Source: Desulfosudis oleivorans
Lineage (GTDB): Bacteria; Desulfobacterota; Desulfobacteria; Desulfobacterales; SURF-7
Direction: 5' to 3'
NCBI GenBank assembly: GCA_020723305.1
Contig: DYJC01000006.1
Coordinates: 124,001 to 188,000, forward strand
Length of the DNA stretch: 64,000 nucleotides
The notes under the pieces were generated by a model. The model ran no database searches and had not been told where the DNA came from. It was given only the letters and a program-made list of their open reading frames with translations. Positions 8,178 through 59,415 of the stretch are shown in pieces; the stretch's first letter is position 1, and the number at the start of each line of letters is the position of its first letter. The position numbers and the translations under genes are program-made.

Positions 8178-8182
8178 TCCAA

Positions 8183-8956: not shown

Positions 8957-9198
8957 ATCCACTCTCCTAAATTTAAACCAGTAAAATATAAATTCGATTT
9001 GCTTTTCATTGCCTTTGTATCTTTTTCTCAGTGTCCCTGTCTCATCATCTGGCGCTGACAAACCGATCCTGACATACAGCTCCGCCCCTTCATTTACATA
9101 AGCTTATGAATCATGGAAAGCCATGTATCTGATTGATCGATTTTTAATTGTTTTATTCAGTTGGTTCAACGAATTGAACCCATGATCTGTGTGGTCTA

Positions 9199-16439: not shown

Positions 16440-17363
16440 CTATGAATGATCCGTTATTCTTTGAGTTTGCTGGTAAACAGGCATGCATATTTTTTCAATA
16501 GCGTCCCGCTCTCTTGCCGATAATGTTTTATGTTTAAAAAGCTTTGTATCAGATATCTGGTCTGCATATTCATTTTGATAAGGCAGATTGATGAATTGAT
16601 AAACCTCAGGAAGAATAGCAGACCGATTCTTTACAAGATTTTCATAATCGATAATCATCAGCCGATTTGTCTTTATCCCTTCCTTTAATGCGAAAACCTG
16701 ACTTGTTTTGGCATTATATGAAAAGCATGCCTTTTCTAATCTGCTTATTCTTCTTCTATTCCCTGAAGCAGATTGGTTCATATTATTTATTGCTTGAACG
16801 CCACAGAACTGAAACAACTCATTCAATGCAAAATCTTCCCAGTTATACAGCATCGAGTATACAACCGAATATGGATTTCTCAGAACCCAAATCAGCTTGT
16901 GTCCCATATCCCCATGGAGTAAGTCATAATATTCATTCACGCACTCGTTGACATAAGTAGTTTGAAAGCAGTGCCTCCCATCCGACTGATATGGTCTGAT
17001 CCCGGACAGTATCAATGCAGCATCCAGCTCATCATCCAACTCTGTCCAGAAATTCACCATTCCTTCACTTTGGGTAATAATTCTGGAGAGCATTGTGGTT
17101 CCGGATCGTTGACAGCCAGCTATCAGTATTGACTGCGGATAACTGTTCAGTTTCAAAAGAAGCGGCTTGTTCTTTTTACGGACTTTTTCAGAAAAACTTC
17201 TCCAGTTATTGATTTGATAATACAGATCATCATCACCTGCCCCTTTCTTATTACGAGTCTTAAAGTGAATTTCTATCTTGTCTTTAAACCCGATCAGATT
17301 GCTTTTTACTTTTTTGTATAAATAATTAATATGCTTATTTGATTTTAACAAATTTACTCCCAT
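16440..17363 (-). CDS. Sulfotransferase family protein
   Basis: PAPS-dependent sulfotransferase fold. The 5'-phosphosulfate loop is SILIAGCQRSGTTMLSRII near residue 80, and the 3'-phosphate motif is HKLIWVLRNPYSVVYSM. A basic N-terminal extension of about 70 residues (LYKKVKSNLIGFKDKIEIHF) precedes the domain. The longer frame would need a TTG at 17378. ATG 17363, 4 bp past the stop of a small upstream frame, is preferred. This is the second of three sulfotransferases in the operon, arguing for a multiply sulfated glycan. Confidence 0.87.
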   Translation of the reverse strand: MGVNLLKSNKHINYLYKKVKSNLIGFKDKIEIHFKTRNKKGAGDDDLYYQINNWRSFSEKVRKKNKPLLLKLNSYPQSILIAGCQRSGTTMLSRIITQSEGMVNFWTELDDELDAALILSGIRPYQSDGRHCFQTTYVNECVNEYYDLLHGDMGHKLIWVLRNPYSVVYSMLYNWEDFALNELFQFCGVQAINNMNQSASGNRRRISRLEKACFSYNAKTSQVFALKEGIKTNRLMIIDYENLVKNRSAILPEVYQFINLPYQNEYADQISDTKLFKHKTLSARERDAIEKICMPVYQQTQRITDHS

Positions 17364-17367
17364 GATT

Positions 17368-17511
17368 TTAAAATTCAAAAAAGGGTTTATTGCGACCTGA
17401 AAGGTTTCTCTTTTTATTCCTTAGAGATGTATGAATAAATTGAAATACTTTATGATAACAAAAAGAAATATCTCTGTAGACCGGCCATAGCCATCTGCTG
17501 TCATTCAGCAT
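17368..17511 (-). CDS. Small ORF between two sulfotransferase genes (47 aa)
   Basis: An ATG at 17511, 8 bp after the stop of the upstream sulfotransferase, opens a 47-codon frame (MLNDSRWLWPVYRDISFC...) ending at TAA 17368, 4 bp before the next sulfotransferase start. It is Trp/Arg/Lys-rich and fills the gap exactly, with spacing on both sides like the other genes of the operon. No family is recognised. It could be a real small protein or the frameshifted N-terminus of the following sulfotransferase. Confidence 0.35.
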   Translation of the reverse strand: MLNDSRWLWPVYRDISFCYHKVFQFIHTSLRNKKRNLSGRNKPFFEF

Positions 17512-17519
17512 ATCTTTTT

Positions 17520-18290
17520 TTAATACCCGAATTGTTGGCCCAGTACTACAACTTTATCAGACAATTGAAAACCAAATGATTTGTCATTTTTCCACTTTCC
17601 CAAAGAACCTTTGTGAAAAAAATCTTTTTTATAAGTTGTGATTTCAGCAAACTGATACAGATAGCTAAAATCAGTGTTATTTTGAACCATGTCCTCATAT
17701 CGGATAATGATCATTCGACCGGGAAAAGACTCCCTTAACTGAATCAGATTACGATATGCAGTATACCATTCATTCTGATTTTTTTCAGGAAGTCCGCGCC
17801 ACCGCTCCCACATTGAATAAACGGTGTCCATAGGATTCCGGACCAACCCGATGATAAAAAATTCAATATCCGGATTCTCCGTGATAAATTTTGAAATGAG
17901 CTGCAAAGCAGAATATTGATGAAGATGGTGTGGTGATTTTTCAAGAAAAATAGGTCCAAATTCTATACACAACAATCGCCATCCATTAAAAATATGTTCT
18001 TCATTGTTTGAAGGTGGTTCGTAGGTTGAATTCAGATTGTCCTGTAATAACTGTATCAGGTCTTTATGGGCCTTTTTTGCCGGTATTGGGACTTCACTGT
18101 CATACATATTAACTTGTGGAAGTCCCAGAACAGATGCAGCCTTTACCCAAAAAAGTGTTTCATTTTCACCATGCCTTGTTTTTTTCACACGGTTGACATT
18201 CATCTGTGATGTAAGAAAATTTTGCAATGCACTGGATCCTGAAGATTTTGTGGATAAAATAATGATGCATTTTGGATTCCGGTCAGTCAT
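17520..18290 (-). CDS. Sulfotransferase family protein
   Basis: A 256-aa protein with an N-terminal PAPS loop CIIILSTKSSGSSALQNFL, in which the usual GT is SS. It has a clear 3'-phosphate motif IEFFIIGLVRNPMDTVYSMW. A conserved WRLLCIEFGPIFLEKSPHH segment supplies the substrate-side region. It is the third sulfotransferase of the cluster. The GSS version of the loop occurs in the family, so activity is still likely. Confidence 0.83.
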   Translation of the reverse strand: MTDRNPKCIIILSTKSSGSSALQNFLTSQMNVNRVKKTRHGENETLFWVKAASVLGLPQVNMYDSEVPIPAKKAHKDLIQLLQDNLNSTYEPPSNNEEHIFNGWRLLCIEFGPIFLEKSPHHLHQYSALQLISKFITENPDIEFFIIGLVRNPMDTVYSMWERWRGLPEKNQNEWYTAYRNLIQLRESFPGRMIIIRYEDMVQNNTDFSYLYQFAEITTYKKDFFHKGSLGKWKNDKSFGFQLSDKVVVLGQQFGY

Positions 18291-19535: not shown

Positions 19536-20528
19536 TTACACCTGATCAAGTGACAAGTGATGATCTTTGTTTTTAAGTACTTTCAGTTTGTTTTTAAGTA
19601 CCCACTTTACAGGAATCCAGATTCGTTTTTTCATTGCTGGGGATGCAGAACCGATCATCCAGCATTCTTTGGTGCAGCTTTTTACCTGCTGTCTTACACT
19701 TTCGGCTTGTTCACTATCCCAGATCTGATCAAAGGTCTGATCCTTTAGATTACCCATTGACATAGGTTTATCAGATCCATTGCACGGCATGATATTTCCG
19801 AAAGGGTCCATAAAAAATACATCGGTTCCCACTTCGCAAGGCAAGGGACGGTTTCCTCCTCTTACCTTATTTGCCAACCCCATATTAAAATAAGCTCTAA
19901 ACCAATTTTTAGGTTTATTTGTCTTCAGTAATTCAAGGGCTATCTTCTCAAACTCTCCCGCTACCACGCCCCTGTCATTAAATGCATTATCATCTTTATG
20001 AAAATAGAATGAATTATGGGTTGTTGCTGTAGCGAACTCCAGACCCATTGCATCTGCCAGATGAAAAAGTTCAATCATATCTTTGGCATTTCTATCTGAT
20101 ACGGTAATTCCAAATCCAATATCTTTTATTCCCATGGCCTGAAGTTTTAAAAGCGTTCTTAAACCATGATCAAACCCATTTTTTATCCCCCTGAGCTCAT
20201 CATTGGCAGCAGGAAGCCCCTCGAGGGAAATCCTTACTCCAATCCGGTTATTATATTTTTCAGCCAACGAGATTATTTTATCGGTAAAATACCCATTTGT
20301 GCTGATAACCAGACGTTCTGTCTTTTCAAGTGCAATCTGAACGATTTCGTCTATATCATCCCTTAAAAATGGCTCCCCCCCGGTTATGTTAATAAACTTC
20401 AATCCACCAGGAATTTTATGTATTAAACTTGGTTGAAATTCTTCATTCTTACTGCTCGGATATTTCCAGGTGCTGCACATATAACATTTGGCATTGCATC
20501 GGTATGTAACAATTAAACAGGCTTCCAT
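19536..20528 (-). CDS. Radical SAM protein with SPASM-like C-terminal cysteines
   Basis: The [4Fe-4S]-SAM motif CNAKCYMC (Cys 11, 15, 18) lies almost at the N-terminus, followed by NITGGEPFLRDD. Later Cys residues in LPCEVG, IMPCNGS and the pair CTKECWMIGSASPAM would bind an auxiliary cluster. A basic amphipathic tail follows (RIWIPVKWVLKNKLKVLKNK). The same architecture and tail recur in the larger fusion protein at 36386-38173, so the two are paralogues. Its place among glycosyltransferases suggests a radical modification of a sugar or lipid carrier; the reaction is unknown. A MITE separates it from the next upstream gene. Confidence 0.85.
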   Translation of the reverse strand: MEACLIVTYRCNAKCYMCSTWKYPSSKNEEFQPSLIHKIPGGLKFINITGGEPFLRDDIDEIVQIALEKTERLVISTNGYFTDKIISLAEKYNNRIGVRISLEGLPAANDELRGIKNGFDHGLRTLLKLQAMGIKDIGFGITVSDRNAKDMIELFHLADAMGLEFATATTHNSFYFHKDDNAFNDRGVVAGEFEKIALELLKTNKPKNWFRAYFNMGLANKVRGGNRPLPCEVGTDVFFMDPFGNIMPCNGSDKPMSMGNLKDQTFDQIWDSEQAESVRQQVKSCTKECWMIGSASPAMKKRIWIPVKWVLKNKLKVLKNKDHHLSLDQV

Positions 20529-20724: not shown

Positions 20725-21930
20725 TCAATTTTTTCTTAACAATTCATTATAAATATCCATCAATTGGCTGCAATGTTTCTCTAAAGAAAATTTCTGCTCA
20801 ACTCTGCGTCTCGCTGCCTTCCCCATTCTTGCTCTCAGTTCTTTATCCTGAAACAGGATGGACATCTTTTCAGATAGTTGTTCCGCATTCCCCATCTCGA
20901 ATAAAAGACCGGTTTCTCCATCCAATACCTGCTCAGGTATCCCACCTATCCGCGAACCTATGACAGGTTTTCCCATGGCCATTGCTTCTAGAACCACCAT
21001 AGAACAATTTTCATTCCATTCTGAGGGTACAACAACAAAGGCTGATCGATTAATAATATCTTTCAGTTCTTCCCCTTGCTTGTATCCCAAAAAGTTTACA
21101 TTGAGATATGTATCAGCAATCTCTTTTAATAACGGTCCTGTGCCGACAACATGAAGAGGCATTCCGGAACACATCATCTCATTCGCTTTGACCAGTGTGC
21201 CAATTCCCTTTTCCCCGGATAACCGACCAAAATAAAGACAGTATCCATCATCCTGAAAGGTTGGTTCATATTCACTCGTATCAATACCATTTTGTAACAC
21301 ACGAATTTTTTCGATTGGAATTCTTCTGCTTACCATTTCCGCCATAAATCGACTCGGTGCTATAAAAGTGTCTATTAAATCATAACTTCCCTTCCATTTA
21401 TGCCAGAAAGCCTCAATCATCAGTAATGCTTCCTGGAGTCTCGATTCTTGACAATGTTTAGCCACCGGTCGCCAAAAATATTTCCCATTGCATGAAGTAC
21501 ATACCAAGCCTTTATTCAACATCAGATATGAAGGACAGATTAACTTTCCATCATGCAATGTCATTACTGTTTTGCACCCATTTTTTTTTAATACCGGAAT
21601 AATTGATGGTGTTAACTGATGATATATATTGTGGAGATGAGCAATTTCCGGTTTTTCTTGATTGATTAGAGCTTGAAGTTTATAAACAGCCTCATGAGAA
21701 TGTATAAATTTAAACCCCTGATGTAATTTCTTCCAAGTGCTCTTTAAATTGTTATAATCAATATTTGATATAAAATAAGCGCCCCAAGGTGAGGAAAGAT
21801 TCCTTGAATCATCCATAGAGAAATCGATAACATCAAAATTATGTTTCAATAAGGATTCTCGTTCCTGGAAAAATACTCTCTCAGAACCGCCATTTATGAA
21901 AAAAAATTTATTCGCCACAAGGATTTTCAT
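20725..21930 (-). CDS. GT4-family glycosyltransferase
   Basis: GT-B glycosyltransferase (401 aa) starting MKILVANKFFFINGGSERVFF, a classical GT4 acceptor loop. The donor domain has YCLYFGRLSGEKGIGTLVKA and the E-x7-E stretch NENCSMVVLEAMAMGKPVIG near residue 305. A short Cys cluster (LICPSYLMLNKGLVCTSCNGKYFW, near 132-155) inserted in the N-terminal domain occurs in a subgroup of such enzymes and may bind a metal. A 262-bp gap upstream separates it from the small DRR-motif gene; no promoter could be assigned there. Confidence 0.9.
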   Translation of the reverse strand: MKILVANKFFFINGGSERVFFQERESLLKHNFDVIDFSMDDSRNLSSPWGAYFISNIDYNNLKSTWKKLHQGFKFIHSHEAVYKLQALINQEKPEIAHLHNIYHQLTPSIIPVLKKNGCKTVMTLHDGKLICPSYLMLNKGLVCTSCNGKYFWRPVAKHCQESRLQEALLMIEAFWHKWKGSYDLIDTFIAPSRFMAEMVSRRIPIEKIRVLQNGIDTSEYEPTFQDDGYCLYFGRLSGEKGIGTLVKANEMMCSGMPLHVVGTGPLLKEIADTYLNVNFLGYKQGEELKDIINRSAFVVVPSEWNENCSMVVLEAMAMGKPVIGSRIGGIPEQVLDGETGLLFEMGNAEQLSEKMSILFQDKELRARMGKAARRRVEQKFSLEKHCSQLMDIYNELLRKN

Positions 21931-24009: not shown

Positions 24010-26640
24010 TCATCTATAATAATAACTCTGGTTTGATTTCACCTGGTTTAATACAGCACCGATTATTTTCTGATCAGAGATACAACTGATCGCTTCATTC
24101 AAAGATTTTACAGACAGATGACCCGCCTTGATAACCAGAATTACTCCATCCATAAGATTGGATAAGGTTGCAACGCCGGAGGTTGTATCCATTGGCATGG
24201 TATCAACCAGAATAATATCAAAATGCCGTTTTAAAATTTCAAGAAGCTTTTCAGTAAGTCTCACATTAATCTGTGGTTTTCTCATCGATAAACCGGAACC
24301 TGCGGGCAGGAGAAACAGATTTTCATCATGCCCGGATCGGATACATGACATAATTTCATTTTCAAGGAACCGGCTTCCTTCCAGTTCCCCAAGCGCATTG
24401 ATCATTGGCGAAGAATCATCACCAAATTCAATGATATCACTCTTATGAAGATTTGCCTTGCCGGATTTGAATGAATAGGTACCTTTTTTCCAACTGAACA
24501 GCTTCTGAAGAGATTCTTCCCTCTGAAGTTTTAATGGCCCCTTAAGTTTTTCCCTGCTGATATAACCGGAATTGATTAAAATATATCCAAGGGGCTGATT
24601 GGTTCGCTTCTGCCTTTCAAGCGCATCATTTAATTGTTCCTCTGTAATAAGGTTACCTTTCAGTAACATATTCCCCATTCGGCTGGATTTGGAAAATTTC
24701 CGGTCCTGAATATGAACACACCGCCCATTCAGGAAATAAACAATCATGGTCTGAGAATCATTTGTAATGCTCAACATTCCGTTTTTCTTACGCAAACCAA
24801 GAAGAAAAAACAGATCATCTATGCTGCATTCCGATAAAGAACCGGACTCTATTGTAAAGGAGGTGATCCTGTCAATAGCATTTAACAGCCCATTGGTGTT
24901 TTCAATACCAAACATCTTATGGAGGCTCGGACGATAAAGATCAAAATCAAACATCAGCACCCGTAATCCTGAATCAACCAAGGTCTTGGCCAGTTGTGTA
25001 AGAACGGTTGTTTTTCCTTCGTCCATTGTAGCACTCTGAACCACAAGCACCTGCCCTGAATACCCGTCTTTTGCCCGCTCAATCGTGGCCTGTGGCAGAT
25101 GACCGGATATCCCAAAAAGGGGATCCGGCGAATCATCCATTACTCCGATCTGCTTCTGCGCTTCATTCCATGGGATGGCTAAAGTTTTATCTTTTTTCAA
25201 GGCCTTGTTATACGGCAGTGTTCCGATTACCGGTACTTTCAGACGTCTTAGCACATCCTCTGGATTTTTGACCGTGTTATCCATATATTCCAAGAAAAAG
25301 GCTAAGGTGATACCCAGGAACAGACTGATCACAACGGCCATGACCATATTTTTGAAAATATCCGGTTTGAACGGCATTAGAGGGATTTCAGCACGGTCAA
25401 CAACATGGATATTACCAATTTCTCTACCCATTATCAGGCTGAGCTCTTTGGATTGGGTAAGCAGTTTGTCATATATTTTCTGGCTGCTGCTGAGCTTCTG
25501 CTCCAGCATTGCATAATCAATCCCCTGGCCATCTGATACCATCGCCTGCTTTTTCTGGGTATCCACGGAATCTTGAATGGATTTTTCATAGGCCAGAGCT
25601 CGATCCAGGTTCGCTTTAACATTTTTCTTGAGGCGCTCTATTTCAACAGTAATCTCTTTATTCAGTTTTTTAATCGCTGAATCGATCTGAATCATCTGGG
25701 GATGCAGGGCACCCAAACGTTGGTCGAGTTGATATCTTTTGGATTTTAGATTAACCAGCTCCGTGCGTAATTTTTGAATCATATAATCGTTTGAGATTTC
25801 CGGCAAAGGCAACAGGTTATTGTCATTCACCGAAAATGAATGCAACTGATCATAAATTGTCTGGAACTTTATCCGCTCTGATCTGGCATTTATCAGAGCA
25901 GAATTGATCCCAACTAATTCTTGAAGCTGAAGATCCTCCTTCCCACCTTTTGATATAATATCATATGTCTTTTTATACTCATGAATCGCGTACCGGTTTG
26001 CTTCAACCTCTGCCTTCTGTACAGCCAGTTCCTTCTCAAGCCAGTTGAATGCTGTTTCAGCAGCCAACTGTTCCATTTGAATACTTGTTTTGATTGCAAC
26101 ATCGATGTGTGTATTGAGTATCTGAGTAATTTTTTCCGGGGATTCGCCTTCAAAACTTACATTCAATAAAGTGGTTCCTGATACTGGTTCTACCTTCAGT
26201 TTGGACAGGTACCAATCGACCTTTTTTGAATCAACCGGGATATCGGTTTTTTTCACCTTTGAAGTCTTTTCATCTGGTTGGAGATTTGCGACTCCTTGTA
26301 CATTATTGTCCAAAAGATGAGAATCTTTTAGCACCTCAGCGGCCAGACTTCGACTGCTTATCAGATTTATCTGGGTCTGAACAAAATCTACGGAAGAAAT
26401 CTTTTTGGTTTCCGTACCAACAAGCTCAAAAGACTGCTTTTCAATATTAATCACCGCAGATGTCTTATAAACAGGGGTTATGCTATAGGAGTAATAAGCA
26501 ACCCCGCATACAATAGAAAGAAAAATCAGAATGATTACCCATTTTCTCTTACCGAGTATCTGGATGTAATCAGAGAGATGTTCTTCTTTCTGGTATGTAT
26601 TCTGCTGGGCCAATGGTTCTGCAATCATGGTTTCGTTCAT
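24010..26640 (-). CDS. Wzc-like co-polymerase/tyrosine kinase with inserted DUF4388-type module
   Basis: Inner-membrane chain-length protein (876 aa). The Wzz domain covers about residues 20-450, with membrane segments near 33-52 and 430-450 and a long periplasmic coiled coil between. The cytoplasmic BY-kinase domain has Walker A ATMDEGKT (537-544), Walker A' FDFDLYRP (564-571), Walker B DIILVD (808-813) and a C-terminal Tyr cluster SYYYR. Between A' and B an extra block of about 170 residues (596-770) looks like DUF4388 (IDDLFFLLGLRKKNGMLSI, YFLNGRCVHIQ, LQKLFSWKKGTYSF). This block encloses a GspE/MshE N-terminal-like helical stretch (MGNMLLKGNLITEEQL). The insertion falls in a loop, so the kinase core can still close. 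Confidence 0.9.
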   Translation of the reverse strand: MNETMIAEPLAQQNTYQKEEHLSDYIQILGKRKWVIILIFLSIVCGVAYYSYSITPVYKTSAVINIEKQSFELVGTETKKISSVDFVQTQINLISSRSLAAEVLKDSHLLDNNVQGVANLQPDEKTSKVKKTDIPVDSKKVDWYLSKLKVEPVSGTTLLNVSFEGESPEKITQILNTHIDVAIKTSIQMEQLAAETAFNWLEKELAVQKAEVEANRYAIHEYKKTYDIISKGGKEDLQLQELVGINSALINARSERIKFQTIYDQLHSFSVNDNNLLPLPEISNDYMIQKLRTELVNLKSKRYQLDQRLGALHPQMIQIDSAIKKLNKEITVEIERLKKNVKANLDRALAYEKSIQDSVDTQKKQAMVSDGQGIDYAMLEQKLSSSQKIYDKLLTQSKELSLIMGREIGNIHVVDRAEIPLMPFKPDIFKNMVMAVVISLFLGITLAFFLEYMDNTVKNPEDVLRRLKVPVIGTLPYNKALKKDKTLAIPWNEAQKQIGVMDDSPDPLFGISGHLPQATIERAKDGYSGQVLVVQSATMDEGKTTVLTQLAKTLVDSGLRVLMFDFDLYRPSLHKMFGIENTNGLLNAIDRITSFTIESGSLSECSIDDLFFLLGLRKKNGMLSITNDSQTMIVYFLNGRCVHIQDRKFSKSSRMGNMLLKGNLITEEQLNDALERQKRTNQPLGYILINSGYISREKLKGPLKLQREESLQKLFSWKKGTYSFKSGKANLHKSDIIEFGDDSSPMINALGELEGSRFLENEIMSCIRSGHDENLFLLPAGSGLSMRKPQINVRLTEKLLEILKRHFDIILVDTMPMDTTSGVATLSNLMDGVILVIKAGHLSVKSLNEAISCISDQKIIGAVLNQVKSNQSYYYR

Positions 26641-29442: not shown

Positions 29443-32400
29443 TTATAGAGTATCGTTCACAGTAATCGTAACTGTCTCACTGTCATCTTCAGATGGAACA
29501 CCATCATCCATTACTGTGAATGTTACAACATAGTCACCTGCCTCATCTGGTAGCGGTGTCCAGATGAATTCTCCGGTGTCCGGGTCAAACGAAGCTCCAG
29601 CCGGTGAATTGCTGATAGTAAATTCGTAGTCATCTCCATCCGGATCACTGGCTGTTACAGTAAAACTTAATGTGTCACCTTCATCTATTGTCTGGTTGCC
29701 TATTGGATTCAGTACCGGAGGTCGGTTTACATCTCCAACCGTTATACTGAACTGCTCACTGTCGTTCTGCGCAGGCGATCCATTATCCGTTACTGTAATC
29801 TGAACATTCGTATATGTTCCGGATTGACCATAACCCGGCGTCCATGTGAATACTCCACTGTTTGCGTTAATCGAAGCGCCACTCGGCGCATTGCTGAGAG
29901 AAAAAGTGTAATCATCTCCATCCGGATCACTGGCCGTTGCCGTAAAACTTAACGTGCCACCCTCATTTACCGTCCGGTTGCCTATCACATTCAGCACCGG
30001 AGGGCGGTTCACATCTCCGACTGTGATACTGAACTGCTCACTGTCGCTCTGTGCTGGTGATCCATTATCCGTTACCGTAATCTGAACATTCGTATATATA
30101 CCGGATTGACCGTAGGCCGTCGTCCAGGTGAATGCGCCGGTGTTCGGGTTAATCGAAGCTCCAGTCGGTGCATTGCTGAGAGAAAAAGTGTAATCATCCC
30201 CATCCGGATCACTGGCCGTTGCCGTAAAGTTCAATGTGCTTCCCTCGTTTACTGTCCGGTTGCCGATCGCATTCAGGACCGGAGGGCGGTTCACATCTCC
30301 GACTGTGATACTGAACTGCTCACTGTCGCTCTGTGCTGGTGATCCATCATCCGTTACTGTAATCTGAACATTCGTATATGTTCCGGATTGACCATAACCC
30401 GGCGTCCATGTGAATACTCCACTGTTTGCGTTAATCGAAGCGCCACTCGGCGCATTGCTAAGAGAAAAAGTGTAATCATCTCCATCCGGATCAATGGCCG
30501 TTGCCGTAAAAGTTAATGTGCCACCTTCATTTACCGTCCGGTTGCCTATCGCATTCAGCACCGGAGGGCGGTTCACTTCTCCGACTGTGATACTGAACTG
30601 CTCGCTGTCGCTCAGTACAGGTGATCCATTATCCGTTACTGTAATCCGAACGTTCGTATATGTGCCGGATTGATTGTACGCCGGTGTCCAGGTGAATACT
30701 CCACTGTTTGCGTCAATCGAGGCCCCGGTCGGCGCATTGCTGAGGGAAAAGGTATAACCATCTCCATCCGGATCACTAGCTGATGCTGTAAAACTTAAAG
30801 TACTTCCCTCACTTACTGTACGGTTGCCGATTGAATTCAGCACTGGAGACCGGTTTACATTTGAAACACGAATCGTTACGGTTTCTGTATCTGTTCCAAC
30901 TGGCGAACCATTATCCGTTACAGCAAAAGTTACATTGTAATCGCCTGCCGCATCATATCCAGGTGTCCATCTGAATACATGAGTGCTTGTATTAAAGGTG
31001 GCTCCATCCGGCAGTCCGCTGGCCGAATAGGTCAGCGTGTCACCAAGATCCGGGTCACTGGCAGATATTGTAAATTGTAATAGAGAGCCTTCATTAACTG
31101 GTTTATCACCAATTGAATTCAGTGTGGGCTGTCCGTTCACATCCGTTACGGAAATTGTAACTATCTCTGAATCCGTAAGGCTGGGTGAACTATTGTCTCT
31201 TACAGTGAATGTAATATCATAACTTCCCGCTTCATCATATTCCGGTCTCCAACTGAAAGTATTTCCAACAAAACTCCAGCCTGAGGGCAGTGGATTTGCA
31301 CCACTGGAGGTCGCAGAATAGGTCAGCGTATCACCGCTGTCCGGATCTGTGCCCGATATTGAGAATGTTAACAAGTTTCCCTCGTTCACCACTTGATGGC
31401 CAATGGGTGTCAACACAGGTGCTCTGTTGGCATTCGCAATGGTAATAACAATAGTCTCACTATCATCCAGATTTGGCATCCCATTATCAACTACTGTAAA
31501 TTTGAGGTCGTATTGACCAGCATCGTTATAGGTCGGTATCCAGGTAAAGACTTTGGTATCCGCATTAAAATTCCAACCCGTGGGGAGAGGTTGATTGGAC
31601 CCTGTATCATCATTTGATTCTGCTGAAAAAGTCAGTGTGTTTCCATCAGAATCTGTTGCCGTTACCGTAAATCTTAGCTGAATACCCTCTGTTCCGGCCT
31701 TGTTGCCAACAAGGCTGAGTACCGGTGGTCTGTTCACATCGCCAACCGATATCCAGATTTCTTCAGAATCTCCAAGAACAGGAGTGCCATCATCTGTTGC
31801 GGTAAAAATGATCTGGTAATTACCGGTATCCTCAAATTCAGGCCTCCAGGTAAATGTTCGTGTCGAAGCATTAAAAATCCATCCGGCAGGCAAAGCATAA
31901 GCGCCATTTGACTCAGCAGTATATGTAATACTGTCTCCATCCGGGTCATTTGCCGTAATGGTGAATGTTAATCTTTTATCTTCTTCTACGCTTCGATTAC
32001 CAATTGAAGCCAATACCGGTGGACGATTTACATCCCCAACTGTTATTGTAATCACTTCATAATCACTTAACGGGTCATCACCGCTTTCATCTGTTACTTT
32101 AAAGATGACATTCTGATATGCTCCTGCCTGATTATAACCAGGTGTCCACCTGAATTCATGAGTATTTACGTTAAAGGAAGCTCCAGCAGGCAGACTGCTT
32201 GCCTCATAAATCAGGTTATCGTCATTATTGGAGTCAGGATCAATGGCACTTATCGTAAATCTCAATTCACTGTTTTCATTGATGCTCTTGTTACCGATAG
32301 AATTCAATTGTGGTGGATGGTTGACACCATCGTCACCAACAGTAATGGTGATTGTTTCCTCATCACGCTGGTCAATATTATCTGATACATAAAACAGAAT

Positions 32401-33351
32401 ATCCGGATATGACTTCCCTCCCTGGTAAAAATCAGGTGTCCATACAAATTGGCGGGTTGTTGGATTGAAGGTTGCTCCGGCGGGAAGATTTCCAGCCGAG
32501 AATGTCAAGTCTTTGCCTTCCGGATCCGTTGCTTGGATAAAAAAAGTTAATGTCTCATCCTCGGTTACCTTTTTATCCCCAATGGGATCAAGCACCGGAG
32601 GCAAGTTCACTTCCTTTTCAATTCTGAATGAAAAAGGAGTTGATTTGCCTGTGTTCCCGAAATTGTCGACTGCATCCACTCTCCAATAGTAAAGGACATC
32701 GGTTGACAGCCCTTCGGAGGGATATTCTGTGGCCGTTGTGGTTTTAATAACAGGGTTACTGAGATCGCTATTCATCGAGATAACAATCTGGTATTCTGTT
32801 GCTCCTGGAACATTACTCCACTGGAGCTTAAAGGCTCCGCTTGTCAATGTTGCTCCATCATCCGGCTCAATCAGTTCCGGCGAAAAGGGTTCTGCCACAA
32901 TCGGCTCCGGCTTCACTGTCTGCCCTGCAGTAACGGTGACATTATTCTGTTCACCTCTGAAAACAACTTCATTGTTCAAATTTTTTCCCAGAATAACAAT
33001 CCTGCGCCCTTCGCCGGCTTCAATTCCTTCGATAACACCGGAATGTTCATTGCAATCCCAGCCTTGTGATCCGCTGTCGCCCAGGAACCGGTTTTCAGAA
33101 TCATAAACTGCGGCATAAATATATGCGACGTCACTGTTTTCACAATTCAATGTGCCGTCCGGGTTCTGGATATCCGAATCCGCACTTTGCGTTTTCCAGG
33201 TAATACTCAAAGCGATTCGGCCGGATTCTTTTGATTTTTCCACTTGCTGTTCCGGCTCATCACCACAACCGGAAAAAATGAATATCATAATAGATGCAAG
33301 GATAATAATGATACCCTGCACAGATATTTTTTTTAATGTCTTTCTTCCCAT
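29443..33351 (-). CDS. Giant lipoprotein with 11 Ig-like (cadherin/He_PIG-type) repeats
   Basis: From ATG 33351 (GGAG 5 bp upstream) the protein starts MGRKTLKKISVQGII and has a lipobox MIFIFSGC, so it should be lipidated (1302 aa). A fibronectin-like domain (FKLQWSNVPGATEYQIVIS) is followed by 11 repeats of about 90-95 residues. Each begins NRPPVLNAIGNRTVNEGGTL and has a Ca-binding-type DPDGD and a W-T-P strand. Repeats 7-11 are the most alike and have a 282-bp DNA period. The protein ends ETVTITVNDTL with no anchor. It is probably a surface adhesin or matrix scaffold, co-transcribed with the small Gly-rich protein upstream. Confidence 0.88.
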   Translation of the reverse strand: MGRKTLKKISVQGIIIILASIMIFIFSGCGDEPEQQVEKSKESGRIALSITWKTQSADSDIQNPDGTLNCENSDVAYIYAAVYDSENRFLGDSGSQGWDCNEHSGVIEGIEAGEGRRIVILGKNLNNEVVFRGEQNNVTVTAGQTVKPEPIVAEPFSPELIEPDDGATLTSGAFKLQWSNVPGATEYQIVISMNSDLSNPVIKTTTATEYPSEGLSTDVLYYWRVDAVDNFGNTGKSTPFSFRIEKEVNLPPVLDPIGDKKVTEDETLTFFIQATDPEGKDLTFSAGNLPAGATFNPTTRQFVWTPDFYQGGKSYPDILFYVSDNIDQRDEETITITVGDDGVNHPPQLNSIGNKSINENSELRFTISAIDPDSNNDDNLIYEASSLPAGASFNVNTHEFRWTPGYNQAGAYQNVIFKVTDESGDDPLSDYEVITITVGDVNRPPVLASIGNRSVEEDKRLTFTITANDPDGDSITYTAESNGAYALPAGWIFNASTRTFTWRPEFEDTGNYQIIFTATDDGTPVLGDSEEIWISVGDVNRPPVLSLVGNKAGTEGIQLRFTVTATDSDGNTLTFSAESNDDTGSNQPLPTGWNFNADTKVFTWIPTYNDAGQYDLKFTVVDNGMPNLDDSETIVITIANANRAPVLTPIGHQVVNEGNLLTFSISGTDPDSGDTLTYSATSSGANPLPSGWSFVGNTFSWRPEYDEAGSYDITFTVRDNSSPSLTDSEIVTISVTDVNGQPTLNSIGDKPVNEGSLLQFTISASDPDLGDTLTYSASGLPDGATFNTSTHVFRWTPGYDAAGDYNVTFAVTDNGSPVGTDTETVTIRVSNVNRSPVLNSIGNRTVSEGSTLSFTASASDPDGDGYTFSLSNAPTGASIDANSGVFTWTPAYNQSGTYTNVRITVTDNGSPVLSDSEQFSITVGEVNRPPVLNAIGNRTVNEGGTLTFTATAIDPDGDDYTFSLSNAPSGASINANSGVFTWTPGYGQSGTYTNVQITVTDDGSPAQSDSEQFSITVGDVNRPPVLNAIGNRTVNEGSTLNFTATASDPDGDDYTFSLSNAPTGASINPNTGAFTWTTAYGQSGIYTNVQITVTDNGSPAQSDSEQFSITVGDVNRPPVLNVIGNRTVNEGGTLSFTATASDPDGDDYTFSLSNAPSGASINANSGVFTWTPGYGQSGTYTNVQITVTDNGSPAQNDSEQFSITVGDVNRPPVLNPIGNQTIDEGDTLSFTVTASDPDGDDYEFTISNSPAGASFDPDTGEFIWTPLPDEAGDYVVTFTVMDDGVPSEDDSETVTITVNDTL
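29719..30850. repeat. 282-bp tandem repeats inside the lipoprotein gene
   Basis: The phrase GGAGGGCGGTTCACATCTCC and the bases around it recur at about 29719, 30001, 30283 and 30565, i.e. every 282 bp (94 codons). Adjacent units are close to identical at the DNA level, including synonymous sites, which points to recent duplication or gene conversion. Confidence 0.85.
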
Positions 33352-33407
33352 TCCGACTCCAAACAACATGTATTCCGATCTTTTAACTTATAGCTGAATT
33401 AACAAGA

Positions 33408-34097: not shown

Positions 34098-35396
34098 TTA
34101 CATTTTTGGAATGCTGATCGTTTTATCCTGAATTGTTTTTAATGCAGGCAGGATTATTGGTGTCTGCTCCCCACCCATTTGTTTTGCCCCATTAAAAACA
34201 TTCTGAAAAATATAACTATAGACCTCTTTGACAGATATTGTTTTATCTGAGTTTGTATCTGCCTCACCTCGAATCCCTCTTAACAGGTAATAGGTAAATA
34301 ATCCATGCTGCATGGCGTGATAGGCTTTATTGATCTGAGAATCCGTTGCAGCGTGGATTGAAATTACTTTTTTAGAGTCGATGGAGATGCTTTTCGATAC
34401 TGAGGTTTTTGTCTCCGTTTTCGGTAACAGCCATTCTGCTTTTCTTGAAGCAGAGCCGCTGAAACAAGTATCCAGAAATACATATGTCATACTGTTTTTC
34501 AGACTATCCAGTTCCTTATAAAACTTTTTTAACGGATAACCAGTCGCCTCCACAGCTTTTGGGTCTCCCTCTTTTAACAACAGATAAGGCTCGCCATTTT
34601 TCAAGCCAGTCAGTCCATGCCCTACAAAATAAACATATAAAATTGAATCTTTTTGAATATTCGGTGGAAAATATTGCGTGATATAGCTTTCCAGTTGAGC
34701 GTTTGTAGCCTGATCATCCAGAATTGTTACGATATTTCCTTCTGGTACACCCAGTATCCTGCTCAAATAATCTTTTACAATCAAGGCATCTTTTTTCGCA
34801 TAAACCACCTCAGGCAGATGGAGATACTTTTCGATCCCGATAATAAGACCCCATCTGTTATATTGATATTCAGGTTTTATATTTTCAGGCAATTGAATGA
34901 CATACTTTGGTTCCATTAAATGAAAATATTGTGTATCGATCCTTTCATCATCCAAAAAAACGTGGGCTTCCCACTTCCCTAAGAAACCAGAAGCTTTTTC
35001 TCCTGCAATGGAAAGCCGATGCCAGATCGTTACATCCCGGATAAAACTTTTATCAGATGCCTTGGCAACTGCATTTCCTGTTGAATAGTATAGCTTTCCA
35101 TCCGGTGAATACCATTCCCATCGAACATCATGTTTTCCAGACAGATTCTCCAATTGTAAAAGTGCAACGACTTCTTTATCTGCGGTACTGTAAATTGTCG
35201 AAGCATCAATCGATTTAGCAGTGACACCTGTGTCATCAATTTTTTTGGAAAGGGTCAATTTGACAAATTTGATATCCGGTTGTTTCCGGATCTCTTTGGT
35301 CTGCGTGCAGGAGACGGCAATACTCAAATATAATGGAATCATAACTGTTACAATTAACTGCATCCCCTTAAAGCGGGAACTGCACACATCATTCAT
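34098..35396 (-). CDS. Caspase-like (C14/metacaspase) lipoprotein
   Basis: 432 aa. A signal with lipobox LSIAVSC (Cys 30) indicates a lipoprotein. Residues 40-165 form a beta-rich domain (GKHDVRWEWYSPDGKLYYSTG). A caspase-fold peptidase domain starts at RWGLIIGIEKYLHLPEVVYAKKDA (about 181-204). The catalytic His is in YFVGHGL (His 260) and Cys in LDTCFSG (Cys 311). An EF-hand-like DTNSDKTISVKEV lies near 385-397. GGGAG precedes the ATG at 35396. Bacterial proteins of this family cleave after Arg/Lys in toxins, signalling proteins or surface substrates. An envelope location beside Ig-repeat adhesins suggests processing of a surface protein, but no partner is proven. Confidence 0.85.
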   Translation of the reverse strand: MNDVCSSRFKGMQLIVTVMIPLYLSIAVSCTQTKEIRKQPDIKFVKLTLSKKIDDTGVTAKSIDASTIYSTADKEVVALLQLENLSGKHDVRWEWYSPDGKLYYSTGNAVAKASDKSFIRDVTIWHRLSIAGEKASGFLGKWEAHVFLDDERIDTQYFHLMEPKYVIQLPENIKPEYQYNRWGLIIGIEKYLHLPEVVYAKKDALIVKDYLSRILGVPEGNIVTILDDQATNAQLESYITQYFPPNIQKDSILYVYFVGHGLTGLKNGEPYLLLKEGDPKAVEATGYPLKKFYKELDSLKNSMTYVFLDTCFSGSASRKAEWLLPKTETKTSVSKSISIDSKKVISIHAATDSQINKAYHAMQHGLFTYYLLRGIRGEADTNSDKTISVKEVYSYIFQNVFNGAKQMGGEQTPIILPALKTIQDKTISIPKM

Positions 35397-35711: not shown

Positions 35712-36326
35712 GTGAATTTCAAGAAACGGCAACTCAATCCAATCATGATATGCCTGTTTATTATTACTGTTTTTGTCACAATTAGCCCAATGGTGAGTTT
35801 CGCTGCCGGTGAAGAATCAGCAACCATCATTCAAAAAAGAGTCGTTTACCTGATTGGAAACGGTGATTTGTTAAACGTCATCACCTGGACCGGTGCGGAA
35901 TTCACAAAGGAAGAAGTGACGGTAAGAATTGACGGTAAAATTACACTCCCTTTGCTGAATGACATTCAGGCTGCCGGAAAAACACCTGTTGAATTGAAAA
36001 AAGAGATTGAAAAAGGATTGGCTGTTTTTGTTGAATCACCGACTGTTACTGTCATTGTCAAAAAACAGGAAAGTAAAAGATTTTATGTTATCGGGGAAGT
36101 GTTGCATTCCGGCAGCTATTCCCTGACAAAGCAACTGACCGTCTTGCAAGCAATTGCAACTGCCGGAGGATTTGCAGAAAAAGCATCCAAAGATGAAATT
36201 ATTTTGATTCGAGAGCATTCCGGAGGCAATTTAACTTTCCGGATTAATTATAATGAAATCATGAAAGGAGAAAACCTCAACACGAATATCGCCATTCAAC
36301 CCGATGATACAATTATCATTCCGTAG
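35712..36326 (+). CDS. Second polysaccharide export protein, short Wza-like (SLBB)
   Basis: GTG start at 35712 with AGGAG 6 bp upstream; 204 aa. A signal peptide (about 32 residues, ending VSFAAGEE) precedes a Poly_export domain, YLIGNGDLLNVITWTGAEFTKEEVTVRIDGKITLPLLNDIQ. One SLBB repeat follows (FYVIGEVLHSGSYSLTKQLTVLQAIATAGGF). It ends ...QPDDTIIIP. It is a paralogue of the protein at 26830-27666 but lacks the second SLBB repeat. It is transcribed alone, opposite to its neighbours. It may serve a second polymer or act as an adaptor for the ABC-type exporter. Confidence 0.85.
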   Translation: MNFKKRQLNPIMICLFIITVFVTISPMVSFAAGEESATIIQKRVVYLIGNGDLLNVITWTGAEFTKEEVTVRIDGKITLPLLNDIQAAGKTPVELKKEIEKGLAVFVESPTVTVIVKKQESKRFYVIGEVLHSGSYSLTKQLTVLQAIATAGGFAEKASKDEIILIREHSGGNLTFRINYNEIMKGENLNTNIAIQPDDTIIIP

Positions 36327-36385: not shown

Positions 36386-38173
36386 TCAATAGGCATAATA
36401 GGGTTCTATATAAATACGTTCTTCCGGGATACCTTTATCTATCAATATCCCACATGTTTGCCGCAGCATATATGGATTACCGCAGATATAGCAATATGCA
36501 GTCTTTGATATTTCATTTTGTTTCAGGTAGTCAGTCACCCTGCCATGAAATCCTCCGCCTTTCTCTTGTGAAATACATGAGATATATCTTTCTGTCTGTA
36601 ATTCACGAGAAACAGGCAAATCCTTTTTGGTTCGAATTCCATGAAGAATTGTAAAATTCAGATTCGGATAGCTTTTCACAAATGATAAAAATGGCCCAAG
36701 CCCTACTCCCATTGCGATGAAGAGGTATTCTCTTTCAGGATCATCGGGTTTCTCAATCCAGAACTCTCCGTACGGACCAACCACATCAACTTTATCACCA
36801 GGTTTTAAAATTTTAAAGTATTGCGAGTACTCTCCTTTTTTAACTGCACGGATTAAAAAACGAAGCTCATCATCATCAATTCCGGAACAGATAGTGTAAT
36901 CACGATTTTTATAATACCGCAGATGAGGCCCCAAGCTGACACTCTGCCCTGGAATGAACTGAAATCCGCTTCTTTCAAGGCTCATGAAAAACATGCTATC
37001 TGTTATATGCTCAATTTCAAGAACATGAGTCATTAGCCTTGTATTATCCTTTAAAGGAAATACCTCTGTATCCTTTATGTCTGAATCCTTTATGATTGAT
37101 GAGTTTGACAACCTGAGATCTCCCTGTATCCTGCTCTGACCCACATCATATTGGTCAGGCAGACAAGAGCGGTCTATCTTAATACCTAATATACTTTTCA
37201 TCTTGTTTTTCAGAACCCATTTTAATGGATGACGAATGTACTTTTTCATTACAGGACTTGCAGTTCCGATCATCCAGCAATTTTTTGGACAATCTCTGAC
37301 CAATTCCCTTACCCGATTAGCCTTTTCGCTGAACCATAATTCTTCAAAGGTATTTACGTTCCGTATATTGCCCATGGATTCTTTCCAGTATTTTTCTTCA
37401 AGACCGTTACAAGGTAACACTTCACCATCCGGCTCGATAAAAAAATTTTCCGTGCCTGCTTCACAGGGAAGAAACCTTTTATTCCCTTTAATATAATTGA
37501 TCAGCCCCAGATTGAAGAACGCTCGAAACCAATTCTTTGGGTTTTTTGTTTTCAGCAATGCGTCGATCAGGTCATAAAAATCACCGATAACCTGATCCTG
37601 TTCTTTAACCTCATTGTCATCTTTATGAAAATAAAACGAATTATGAAAAGTGGCTGTAGCAAATTCCATATCAAGGTTGTTGGCCAGAGAATATAACTGA
37701 AAAATATCAAACGAGTTTTTATGAGAAACCGTTGTAGCAAACCCGATATCTTTTACGCCCATGTCTTTCAGACCTTGCAGGGTCCTGAGCCCCCTGTCAA
37801 ACCCCCCATCCCGTCCTCTAAGATGATCATTGATGGTGGATAAGCCCTCGATGCTGACCCTTATTCCGATTTCTGGAAACCGTTCTGCCAAGGAGAGTAT
37901 CTCATCAACATGATACCCTGCAGTAGAAATGACTACCCTCGATGCCTTTCTGAAAGATACTTCAACAATTTCATCCAGATCATGCCTTACAAATGGTTCA
38001 CCACCAGTTATCCCAATAAATTTCATTATAGGTAAGATCTCTAACTCTTTTGCAGTAATCTCTTTTTCAATCTCAGATGGATTTTTCCAGATATTACACA
38101 TCTTACATCTCATGTTACATCTGTATGTCACGATAATTGATAATTCATTTGGTAAACTGTTTTGCTTATCCAT
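36386..38173 (-). CDS. Radical SAM protein fused to a ferredoxin-NADP reductase-type flavoprotein
   Basis: 595 aa. The N-terminal radical SAM domain has CNMRCKMC (Cys 19, 23, 26), GITGGEPFVRHD (54-65) and SPASM-like Cys 237, 255, 295 and 299 in the order LPCEAG, LPCNG, CPKNCWMIGTAS. After a linker (about 330-375) comes an FNR-type domain. Its FAD motif is RDYTICSG (424-431), the NAD(P) motif FIAMGVGLGPFLSF (485-498), and CYICGNPYMLRQ (561-572) lies near the end. The SAM part is a close paralogue of 19536-20528, including the tail HPLKWVLKNKMKSIL. The reductase could deliver electrons to the cluster in cis. The substrate is unknown. Confidence 0.88.
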   Translation of the reverse strand: MDKQNSLPNELSIIVTYRCNMRCKMCNIWKNPSEIEKEITAKELEILPIMKFIGITGGEPFVRHDLDEIVEVSFRKASRVVISTAGYHVDEILSLAERFPEIGIRVSIEGLSTINDHLRGRDGGFDRGLRTLQGLKDMGVKDIGFATTVSHKNSFDIFQLYSLANNLDMEFATATFHNSFYFHKDDNEVKEQDQVIGDFYDLIDALLKTKNPKNWFRAFFNLGLINYIKGNKRFLPCEAGTENFFIEPDGEVLPCNGLEEKYWKESMGNIRNVNTFEELWFSEKANRVRELVRDCPKNCWMIGTASPVMKKYIRHPLKWVLKNKMKSILGIKIDRSCLPDQYDVGQSRIQGDLRLSNSSIIKDSDIKDTEVFPLKDNTRLMTHVLEIEHITDSMFFMSLERSGFQFIPGQSVSLGPHLRYYKNRDYTICSGIDDDELRFLIRAVKKGEYSQYFKILKPGDKVDVVGPYGEFWIEKPDDPEREYLFIAMGVGLGPFLSFVKSYPNLNFTILHGIRTKKDLPVSRELQTERYISCISQEKGGGFHGRVTDYLKQNEISKTAYCYICGNPYMLRQTCGILIDKGIPEERIYIEPYYAY

Positions 38174-57041: not shown

Positions 57042-57890
57042 TTATTTTGTCTCTGACCGTACTATATTACTCATTAATACGTTAACTGCAAAAAGGAATA
57101 AAAAAGATAAAATAAAAATCAGAATACCGGATGCCTCATGCAGAAAACCCTGTGCGAAATCCGGGCCATAGTATCTTGCAAGTATAGCTGTTGCGGTTAA
57201 TCGAATAATATTTAAAAAAATCGCTATCGGTATTGCTGATAAAAAAATTAGAAACTTTTTTGTTCCTGAATGTTCCGTCAGCAAAGCCAGTGCGGAACTG
57301 AGGGCCAACAGCGACGTCAGAGATCTTAACCCTGAACAGGCATCTACTACTTCCAAAGTCGTATTGGTAAGATGGATAATATTACCTTCTCCAAAGACCG
57401 GGATATCAAAAGATTGGATAACACTTACAGACATATTTGTTGCAAATAACTTCAATGGGAATGCTATCTTATTCCAAATAATTGATGGAAATGGTATCAT
57501 AAATACCAAATATACGACCGGCAAAAAAAGGATTTGTGAATATCTCCATCCAGCCAAAAAGACAATCAGGCTTAAAATTACCAGGATCATTGAGAACCGC
57601 ATGGTAAACTGCTCAACGCCAATATTTGCAACGAAATAGAAAATCAGACTGAATAGTAATAAGACAAGACCCGTATCGGATGGGGAAATGACTGTTTGTT
57701 TTAGCTGTTCTTTTTTTCTCCATATCAAATATCCTGAAATTATGGGTATTAAAAAGCCATGTGAGAAATTATCATTTGATAACCAGTCCAATACCATTTT
57801 ATAAATTACATTATTATATAAAATCAAAAAACCTGCAATTGCAGGTATGAGTCGAAAAAATTGCCGATTCTCATTTATAGAACCAATCAT
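57042..57890 (-). CDS. xrtA: Exosortase A (XrtA/EpsH)
   Basis: 282-aa inner-membrane transpeptidase-like protease of the exosortase family, with about eight hydrophobic segments. The proposed catalytic residues are visible: Cys 185 in VVDACSGLRSL, Arg 230 in LNIIRLT and His 251 in GFLHEASG. Exosortases cleave C-terminal PEP-CTERM signals and attach the protein to a surface component. Its start shares one base with the epsI stop. No gene in this window has a recognisable PEP-CTERM tail, so its substrates must lie elsewhere or use an atypical signal. Confidence 0.93.
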   Translation of the reverse strand: MIGSINENRQFFRLIPAIAGFLILYNNVIYKMVLDWLSNDNFSHGFLIPIISGYLIWRKKEQLKQTVISPSDTGLVLLLFSLIFYFVANIGVEQFTMRFSMILVILSLIVFLAGWRYSQILFLPVVYLVFMIPFPSIIWNKIAFPLKLFATNMSVSVIQSFDIPVFGEGNIIHLTNTTLEVVDACSGLRSLTSLLALSSALALLTEHSGTKKFLIFLSAIPIAIFLNIIRLTATAILARYYGPDFAQGFLHEASGILIFILSFLFLFAVNVLMSNIVRSETK

Positions 57891-58549
57891 TATTTTGTTT
57901 CCCCTGGAATATACTGATTCAGTACAGGTATCAGCTCCGTAGCAAACGATTTTAAAAAGCCGGCAGCATATTTCTCCCCCCTTCTGTCAACAGGAGCGAT
58001 CAGACGTATAAAAGCGCCATCTGTCCTTTTATGAAAAATGGCGTCCCAAACAAGATAAATCTTCTGCCAGTATTCAGACCGGATATATCTGCCTCGCTCC
58101 TGAAACCAGTATAGTACGATTTGCTGATCCAGTCCTTTCTTTATAACCAGCTGAATGAGGTTTACAGTACTTCCAGGTATTTTGACTTCTTCTGTCATAG
58201 TGGATGTTATTTCCCACCCGGAACCAGGCATGCAATTTTTTGGCGAATGTATGACACTTCCTTCTTTCTGGCTCTGATAATACCCGATGTATACTTGAAC
58301 CTGTTTTTTATCCGGGCTGCTGTATGAAATAAGAATCGAATCATCAACGCCTAATTCATCATAAATGGATTGATCAAAATAAGATATCGTTCCATGCCAC
58401 TGTCCAATCTGCAGTGGAAATGTTAAAAATTTTTTTCTGGGTGGTACATTTTCACTATAACTCACATGCTTTAATAAGATGAAAGTCATAATCAGTAAAA
58501 AAGTGGCAAGAAAAATTCTTTTAGCAGATGGTAACAACATCGGTTTCAT
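57890..58549 (-). CDS. epsI: EpsI-like protein, exosortase-associated
   Basis: 219 aa. An N-terminal membrane anchor (KRIFLATFLLIMTFILLK) is followed by a periplasmic EpsI/DUF3485-type domain, with FPLQIGQWHG, ISYSSPDKKQVQVYIGYYQSQKEGSVIHSPKNCMPGSGW and IQLVIKKG. The Cys in PKNCMPG is a family feature. In many loci this domain is fused to exosortase; here it is a separate gene. ATG 58549 overlaps the deacetylase stop by 4 bp (ATGA), favouring it over the upstream start at 58582. It probably assists exosortase or polysaccharide assembly. Confidence 0.9.
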   Translation of the reverse strand: MKPMLLPSAKRIFLATFLLIMTFILLKHVSYSENVPPRKKFLTFPLQIGQWHGTISYFDQSIYDELGVDDSILISYSSPDKKQVQVYIGYYQSQKEGSVIHSPKNCMPGSGWEITSTMTEEVKIPGSTVNLIQLVIKKGLDQQIVLYWFQERGRYIRSEYWQKIYLVWDAIFHKRTDGAFIRLIAPVDRRGEKYAAGFLKSFATELIPVLNQYIPGETK

Positions 58550-59415
58550 AATGATGCCTTGTTCTTTACCATTTCCCGGCATGTAATAAATTCCTGATTT
58601 CTAAAATCAGAAATCATTTTTTTCAAACGGATCTCGGTTTTATCCAGGTTCATATAGTGTCGGAACTTAAAAAAAATTGAGGCTTCATCAACCTTTGGCT
58701 GTTTTGGGTCCACTTCCCATGGATGCATATAAAATACGTATGCTTCTTCATTTTGTAATATCGATTGTATGCCTTTTTTAAATATTGACAAAGGATAAAG
58801 TCTGAAATACCCACCGCCGCCCCATGGCAAATCTGTTTTTAAATATCGAAATGTTAAATTGCTGATCGGTATTTCAAAAAAGGATTTTGAAATCTGATAT
58901 ATGATACCTTTTTTATGATTACGGGAAAAATCTACTGATCCATATCTCTTGTTCATGGAAAATGAATTAAAACTCGAATCATAAAGATATCCGCAATCTT
59001 CAATGACTTTTAAGGTTTCAGCACTGATCGAGAAGTTAGGTGCTCGATAGCCATGGATCGCTGAACCTGTAATATCTTCCAAAAGCTTTTTGCTATCTGT
59101 TAAATCCTTTTTCAACTTTTCATTTGACTCTAGCGAACAAAGGATATGATTATAACCATGTGATGCTACCTCATGCCCTCGTTTACCAATTTCTCTCACG
59201 AGGTCAGGAAATCGCTGGGCGATCCATCCAAGGACAAAGAAGGTGGCATGCACTTGTTGTTCTTTTACAGAGTCAAAAAGATCTAGAATGTAATGCGTAT
59301 TTTGTTCAACCCGAACCTCTCTTGTGTCCCAGCTTGAAAATGATATCCATTTCTTGAAATTTTCAACCTGAAACCAATCTTCAACATCAATTGTGAGCAG
59401 TATTGACTTTTTCAT
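58546..59415 (-). CDS. DUF3473/XrtA-type polysaccharide deacetylase
   Basis: 289 aa from ATG 59415; the longer frame uses TTG 59427. NodB-fold motifs: ILLTIDVEDWF (metal Asp), HATFFVLGWI, GHEVASHGYNH (metal His pair) and GYRAPNFS. The C-terminal DUF3473 region has LPWGGGGYFRLYP and FYMHPWEVDP. This version is a marker of XrtA/PEP-CTERM loci and probably deacetylates amino sugars in the exopolysaccharide. It lies 43 bp downstream of the acyl ligase gene and overlaps epsI. Confidence 0.9.
   Translation of the reverse strand: MKKSILLTIDVEDWFQVENFKKWISFSSWDTREVRVEQNTHYILDLFDSVKEQQVHATFFVLGWIAQRFPDLVREIGKRGHEVASHGYNHILCSLESNEKLKKDLTDSKKLLEDITGSAIHGYRAPNFSISAETLKVIEDCGYLYDSSFNSFSMNKRYGSVDFSRNHKKGIIYQISKSFFEIPISNLTFRYLKTDLPWGGGGYFRLYPLSIFKKGIQSILQNEEAYVFYMHPWEVDPKQPKVDEASIFFKFRHYMNLDKTEIRLKKMISDFRNQEFITCREMVKNKASL

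Follow-up and report, generated by a model that had tools for sequence, protein, structure and literature searches.

A gene joining a predicted Twitch-domain radical SAM enzyme to an FPR-type flavin reductase, and a Bacteroidales reductase family that probably supplies radical SAM enzymes with electrons

Whether a radical SAM enzyme can carry its own electron supply is the question raised by one gene of the Desulfosudis oleivorans window (the whole stretch of 64,000 nucleotides that was analysed). An earlier note on this DNA had described the product as a radical SAM/SPASM protein joined in the same chain to a flavin reductase. The gene and its parts are as follows.

36386..38173, minus strand: fused radical SAM/Twitch – FAD/NAD(P)H reductase gene, 595 aa (open frame, Pfam, recurrence, structure model)
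37469..38146, minus strand: radical SAM core, residues 10-235 (Pfam and residues invariant in 91 homologues)
37271..37468, minus strand: Twitch domain, residues 236-301 (cysteine motif; Pfam SPASM match 237-299)
37103..37270, minus strand: C-terminal helices of the radical SAM part, residues 302-357 (common to stand-alone homologues; model)
37043..37102, minus strand: linker, residues 358-377 (disordered in the model; stand-alone homologues stop at or before it)
36389..37042, minus strand: FPR-type reductase domain, residues 378-595 (FAD_binding_6, NAD_binding_1, family invariants, nearest folds)

The frame was single and unbroken, with 595 codons from an ATG start. Four Pfam domains were detected in the product, all above their gathering cut-offs: Radical_SAM (PF04055, residues 13-147, 51.2 bits against a cut-off of 29.5), SPASM (237-299), FAD_binding_6 (401-471) and NAD_binding_1 (485-574). 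The radical SAM core includes CX3CX2C (C19, C23 and C26) and GGEP (57-60), and the former, invariant in 91 homologues, together with the profile score assigns this half to the radical SAM superfamily. The reductase half includes R424-D-Y426-T in the FAD subdomain and GVGLGPF (489-495) in the NAD(P) subdomain; the invariants of its family are R424, Y426, G489, G491, P494 and C533, and the C-terminus is aromatic. These RxYS/T and GxGxxPF motifs, the Pfam matches and the fold found by Foldseek place the domain among the FPR/FNR-type NAD(P)H flavoreductases. The two domains of the earlier description were both recovered, with their limits moved according to Pfam and the ends of stand-alone homologues: the radical SAM half extends not to residue 330 but to approximately 355, where stand-alone homologues stop, and the reductase half starts not at 375 but at approximately 378, where stand-alone reductases start.

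The radical SAM/flavin reductase fusion recurs in two other families of the order to which the window genome belongs. Homologues at E ≤ 1e-60 were present in 35 of the 390 sampled genomes of the order, and the complete fusion in three. Two further complete fusions were found, in locus L019 of genome G040 (61% identity, residues 4-594) and locus L134 of G308 (63% identity, residues 5-595), and a fourth candidate, L020, in which a contig end cuts the gene. Because the full-length fusion recurs in L019 and L134, the junction is real, and a sequencing or assembly artefact is ruled out; the halves are not always encoded separately, although in most homologues they are. The fused reductase domains formed a single clade in the reductase tree (100/99), and the fused radical SAM domains a single clade together with the truncated L020 in the radical SAM tree (SH-aLRT 99). 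Since the fused domains are monophyletic in both trees, one fusion event would be the simplest account of the known fused genes.

An AlphaFold2 model of the full-length protein was built from an alignment of 38 sequences, consisting of radical SAM rows and the three fusions (reductase-only rows were misaligned and left out). Both halves were folded, with a mean pLDDT of 82.9; values were mostly above 90 in the radical SAM half, mostly 55-90 in the reductase half and below 50 at residues 358-376, which in the model are a flexible linker between the halves. The nearest folds to the C-terminal half in Foldseek were bacterial FPRs (6rr3, 5thx, 1a8p and the E. coli flavodoxin reductase 1fdr), and the N-terminal half matched SkfB (6efn). 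Also the model of a stand-alone paralogue encoded in the window (pLDDT 91.6) had SkfB 6efn as its best match by E-value and BlsE 7vob as its best by TM-score (0.64), among the matches listed. The Twitch enzyme SkfB was the best solved relative by profile and, among the matches listed, by fold E-value.

The SPASM part of the earlier description did not stand. The SPASM motif, CX9-15GX4C-gap-CX2CX5CX3C-gap-C, has seven cysteines and two auxiliary clusters (PMC6231123), whereas a Twitch domain by definition has one auxiliary cluster (PMC9012708). Across 91 homologues the only invariant cysteines were C19, C23, C26, C237, C255, C295 and C299, three for the SAM cluster and four for an auxiliary site arranged as C237-X12-G250-X4-C255 ... 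C295-X3-C299. These four match the first part of the SPASM motif, and the rest of its cysteines are missing in the 91 homologues; the Pfam SPASM match is explained by its covering the first part, common to SPASM and Twitch. Because there are four auxiliary cysteines and not seven, corresponding to one auxiliary cluster, the full SPASM assignment was dropped, and the protein is, to judge from its sequence, a Twitch-domain radical SAM enzyme with a putative single auxiliary cluster. The region HNSxYFHKxDN (177-187) is strongly conserved or invariant in the same homologues and is likely the substrate site. No conserved cysteine was found in the 91 homologues beyond the seven cluster ligands; since the ligands account for all conserved cysteines, a radical epimerase with a cysteine hydrogen donor is not favoured.

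Most homologues of the radical SAM half are stand-alone proteins of approximately 350-380 aa, found in Bacteroidota, Fibrobacterota, Gammaproteobacteria, Campylobacterota and Desulfobacterales. A family 4 glycosyltransferase directly adjoined the radical SAM gene in 61 of the 71 loci, and a glycosyltransferase of the MKIxVTGTRGIP..GGVE type was at most three genes away in 59. The other flanking genes included sugar-1-phosphate transferases, Wza and Wzc types and hexapeptide acetyltransferases. The gene directly downstream, in several Desulfobacterales loci, encodes an exosortase-EpsI protein, as assigned from its sequence. The earlier suggestion of sugar or lipid modification is supported for sugar by the adjoining glycosyltransferases and the polysaccharide loci; the homologue neighbourhoods gave no hint of lipid modification. 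RiPP maturation was also rejected: the profile similarity was weak and far below the equivalog cut-offs, and the neighbours examined were polysaccharide genes. In many Desulfobacterales (L048, L050, L078, L136 and L138-L140), the stand-alone radical SAM gene is flanked by a family 4 glycosyltransferase and an exosortase-EpsI gene (assigned from sequence).

The window includes the following genes of the same context, among them the paralogue that the earlier note had placed among glycosyltransferases at a distance of 17 kb.

19536..20528, minus strand: stand-alone Twitch radical SAM paralogue, 330 aa, 54% identity
18383..19549, minus strand: family 4 glycosyltransferase, overlapping the paralogue; its counterpart in L019 and L134 immediately precedes the fused gene (477 and 485 bits)
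20725..21930, minus strand: second family 4 glycosyltransferase; its counterpart in L019 is the remaining glycosyltransferase that precedes the fused gene (457 bits)
35712..36326, plus strand: polysaccharide export protein (Wza type, SLBB), convergent neighbour of the fused gene
57042..58582, minus strand: exosortase (EpsH) and EpsI-like genes, same exopolysaccharide region

The paralogue, approximately 16 kb from the fused gene, does have glycosyltransferases on both sides, and in the radical SAM tree it falls in another clade, with good support. At L019 and L134, glycosyltransferases precede the fused gene; in the window the counterparts of these flank the paralogue instead, and the fused gene is not adjacent to its glycosyltransferase but sits between convergent and divergent neighbours. 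Going by its predicted genes, the window is an exosortase/exopolysaccharide region.

Neighbourhood analysis, proposed earlier as a check, revealed besides the glycosyltransferase partner in polysaccharide loci a separate reductase gene adjoining the stand-alone radical SAM gene in four Bacteroidota loci (L036, L037, L059 and L063). The two genes are 2 bp apart in L036, and the reductase copy of L063 is apparently damaged. When the fused protein was used as a query against 393 genomes of Bacteroidales, the order of G390/L059, many further stand-alone reductases were found, approximately 220 aa long and sharing 31-41% identity with the window domain. In 55 of the 81 Bacteroidales cases, MiaB, MtaB, LipA or RlmN was encoded at most two genes from the reductase (loci in L147-L165 and L167-L226). 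The separate tallies near the 81 genes were 32 for MiaB, 21 for MtaB, 11 for LipA and 12 for RlmN, and they overlap, MiaB and MtaB often being consecutive. Representatives exceeded the NCBIfam equivalog cut-offs (MiaB 384/355, MtaB 430/357, LipA 348/310, RlmN 360/290). These typed enzymes made up 75 of the 302 genes at most two positions from the reductase and 7 of the 296 genes farther away in the same stretches (Fisher p = 2.7e-17, which is indicative only, as the loci are related). The immediate downstream neighbour was a typed radical SAM enzyme in 45 of the 81 cases, all of them co-directional.

Among the 20 next-best FNR-like genes of Desulfobacterota, taken as a control set, one (L249) had a CX3CX2C radical SAM-like gene at most two positions away within the readable surroundings, and the rest adjoined cobalamin adenosyltransferase-like, PyrD-like or Rnf-like genes (read from sequence). 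Because this control shows one case, proximity to radical SAM genes is ruled out as a general trait of the FNR fold. At E ≤ 1e-35, no member of the reductase family was detected beyond the query genome in 297 genomes drawn across Bacteroidota; since this sample matched the query genome only, the distribution of the family is restricted by lineage, apparently to a part of Bacteroidota. The window domain scored 287.7 bits against a family profile that was built including the window sequence, and it grouped with the MiaB- and LipA-linked members, its own coupling being the fusion. The Desulfobacterales fusion probably borrowed its reductase from the Bacteroidales family.

The reductase tree separated an RlmN-linked clade (100/100) from a clade including the MiaB-, MtaB- and LipA-linked, polysaccharide-linked and fused members. 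Within the latter, at least three changes of the LipA label are required on branches with good support, and L036 and L059 form a pair apart from the long-branched L037. This branching bears on the possibility that the association with MiaB, LipA and RlmN is inherited gene order and the fused domain carries out an unrelated redox step on a glycan. Gene order is indeed passed down within Bacteroidales, and 26 of the 81 members have no typed radical SAM neighbour, with Radical_SAM still the commonest Pfam domain among the neighbours of these (5 of 75 proteins scanned, with the BATS domain, which is associated with radical SAM, in 3). The explanation is nevertheless very improbable in view of the four partner families on separated reductase branches: the RlmN clade, several LipA branches, the fused clade and a polysaccharide-linked pair. 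Because the partners are on separated branches, the coupling of reductase and radical SAM enzyme arose repeatedly with different partners, and this recurrence is the strongest argument that the shared role is electron supply for SAM cleavage and not one substrate. Three reductase members (L149, L153 and L155) have a cysteine-rich N-terminal extension (MGKCxCxSN...CGCKSKKK) and are located beside genes of aromatic amino-acid pathways, not radical SAM genes.

In our judgement it is likely that members of the reductase family serve radical SAM enzymes as dedicated NAD(P)H-driven electron donors, and that one of them is fused here to an enzyme that would modify exopolysaccharide. The earlier proposal of an electron supply of its own has strong contextual support, and we infer it from the recurring fusion, the four loci with adjoining reductases and the coupling to MiaB, MtaB, LipA and RlmN. 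Against it stands the observation that most homologues, including the window paralogue, have no reductase nearby, for which reason the reductase is not needed for the radical chemistry. Also counting against it are the separation of the fused gene from its glycosyltransferase in the window and the 26 of 81 reductase genes that have none of the four typed enzymes nearby. A reductase that re-reduces the clusters or scavenges oxygen for survival in air, instead of feeding each turnover, would fit the coupling to very different radical SAM enzymes too, and radical SAM clusters are sensitive to oxygen (PMC9576991). Yet a catalytic partner is the more natural reading of a covalent fusion and of operons shared with individual enzymes, and many of the partners are housekeeping enzymes of anaerobes, so that we consider such a protective role quite unlikely.

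Electrons could also run the other way, from a substrate radical through the Twitch cluster and FAD to NAD(P)+, the fusion then draining or recycling electrons as in a dehydrogenase. The four-cysteine auxiliary cluster does resemble the fully ligated cluster of BtrN, a proposed electron acceptor (PMC9012708). What MiaB, MtaB, LipA and RlmN share is, however, a need for reductive SAM cleavage and not for an acceptor, and most homologues function without a reductase; reverse flow is unlikely.

Under the electron-donor reading, the FAD of the C-terminal FPR-type domain would accept a hydride from NAD(P)H, and the reduced flavin would give single electrons across the flexible linker to the N-terminal Fe-S clusters, apparently with no separate flavodoxin or ferredoxin between them. 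The reduced [4Fe-4S]+ cluster at C19/C23/C26 would then cleave SAM, and the resulting 5'-deoxyadenosyl radical would take a hydrogen from an exopolysaccharide sugar, presumably nucleotide- or lipid-linked, that the partner glycosyltransferase of family 4 makes or extends. The Twitch cluster may help to handle the substrate radical. By analogy with BtrN-type Twitch enzymes, we tentatively suggest oxidation or epimerisation at a sugar C-OH as the reaction, a possibility that we hold with low confidence. The reductase would descend from the Bacteroidales family of approximately 220 aa, whose stand-alone members would serve MiaB, MtaB, LipA, RlmN and a polysaccharide enzyme. We lean somewhat towards the wider view that these NAD(P)H:FAD reductases directly power individual radical SAM enzymes, with clades specialised by partner and the window protein as a natural fusion.

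The modest reducing power of NAD(P)H with FAD is a weak point of this route, and FPRs normally reduce a one-electron carrier. One radical SAM enzyme that does have a flavoprotein electron-transfer domain in its own chain is TYW1, a flavodoxin fusion that acts on tRNA and whose extra domain is FMN flavodoxin-like. In the window protein, in contrast, the flavin domain occupies the opposite end, and as an FAD/NAD(P)H reductase it can take the hydride itself. The pair of E. coli FPR (1fdr) and flavodoxin FldA, with NADPH, is the standard system for reducing radical SAM enzymes in vitro, and, as a precedent for activation by a simple flavin, the SPASM enzyme PapB is active with FMN and NADPH; the authors term the reduction steps in vivo enigmatic (PMC10470005). 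The window reductase domain has the fold and cofactor motifs of E. coli FPR, but it is covalently joined to one radical SAM enzyme, as its family members are genomically paired with one, and there is no flavodoxin or ferredoxin domain. The best NCBIfam matches of the FAD/NAD half were the three-domain oxygenase reductases BenC and MmoC, and PaaE; their [2Fe-2S] ferredoxin domain is missing from the window protein by Pfam, and the BenC score of 77.8 bits is far from the equivalog cut-off of 430, so the domain is not of the BenC/MmoC type. The radical SAM half shares the CX3CX2C core and the CX9-15GX4C...C...C auxiliary site with the Twitch enzymes BtrN, MoaA, SkfB and SpeY and with BlsE. It differs from them in identity, which is below 25%, and in its glycosyltransferase partner in exopolysaccharide loci.

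Flavodoxin-fused radical SAM enzymes and FPR/flavodoxin as an in vitro donor are known already, and the FPR-type fusion is apparently new. A search of the open-access literature, which is weak evidence on this point, turned up neither a fusion of an FPR-type domain with a radical SAM enzyme nor the pairing of a reductase family with MiaB, LipA and RlmN. If the wider view is correct, these proteins would be a physiological reductant system for radical SAM enzymes that is absent from the open-access literature searched. The reduction of these enzymes in cells is still described as enigmatic, and use of the flavodoxin pair of E. coli is largely a matter of convention (PMC10470005). The natural fusion and the coupled reductase family make the question testable in one protein and in tractable Bacteroidales. 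A self-contained radical SAM enzyme needing NAD(P)H and SAM alone would also be a useful catalyst.

The window includes several further genes of interest, all on the minus strand. A Wzc-type chain-length/tyrosine kinase (24010-26640) has an MshE-type cyclic di-GMP motif (NF053729, above cut-off) at residues 654-700, which suggests that c-di-GMP may directly control exopolysaccharide export through this protein. Near the fused gene there is a gene for a caspase-like protein (Peptidase_C14) with a lipoprotein-like N-terminus (34098-35396). A protein of 1308 aa encoded near the exopolysaccharide genes (29443-33369) consists mostly of cadherin-like repeats ('NRPPVLN.IGN..V.EG') and is likely a secreted matrix protein. 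Two sulfotransferase-family genes (16440-17378 and 17520-18290) beside the glycosyltransferase/paralogue cluster suggest that the exopolysaccharide is sulfated. Genes for a glucose-1-phosphate cytidylyltransferase (8183-9061), a 4,6-dehydratase-like protein (7056-8219) and an RmlC-type epimerase (5180-5710) together form a putative deoxysugar pathway in the same region.
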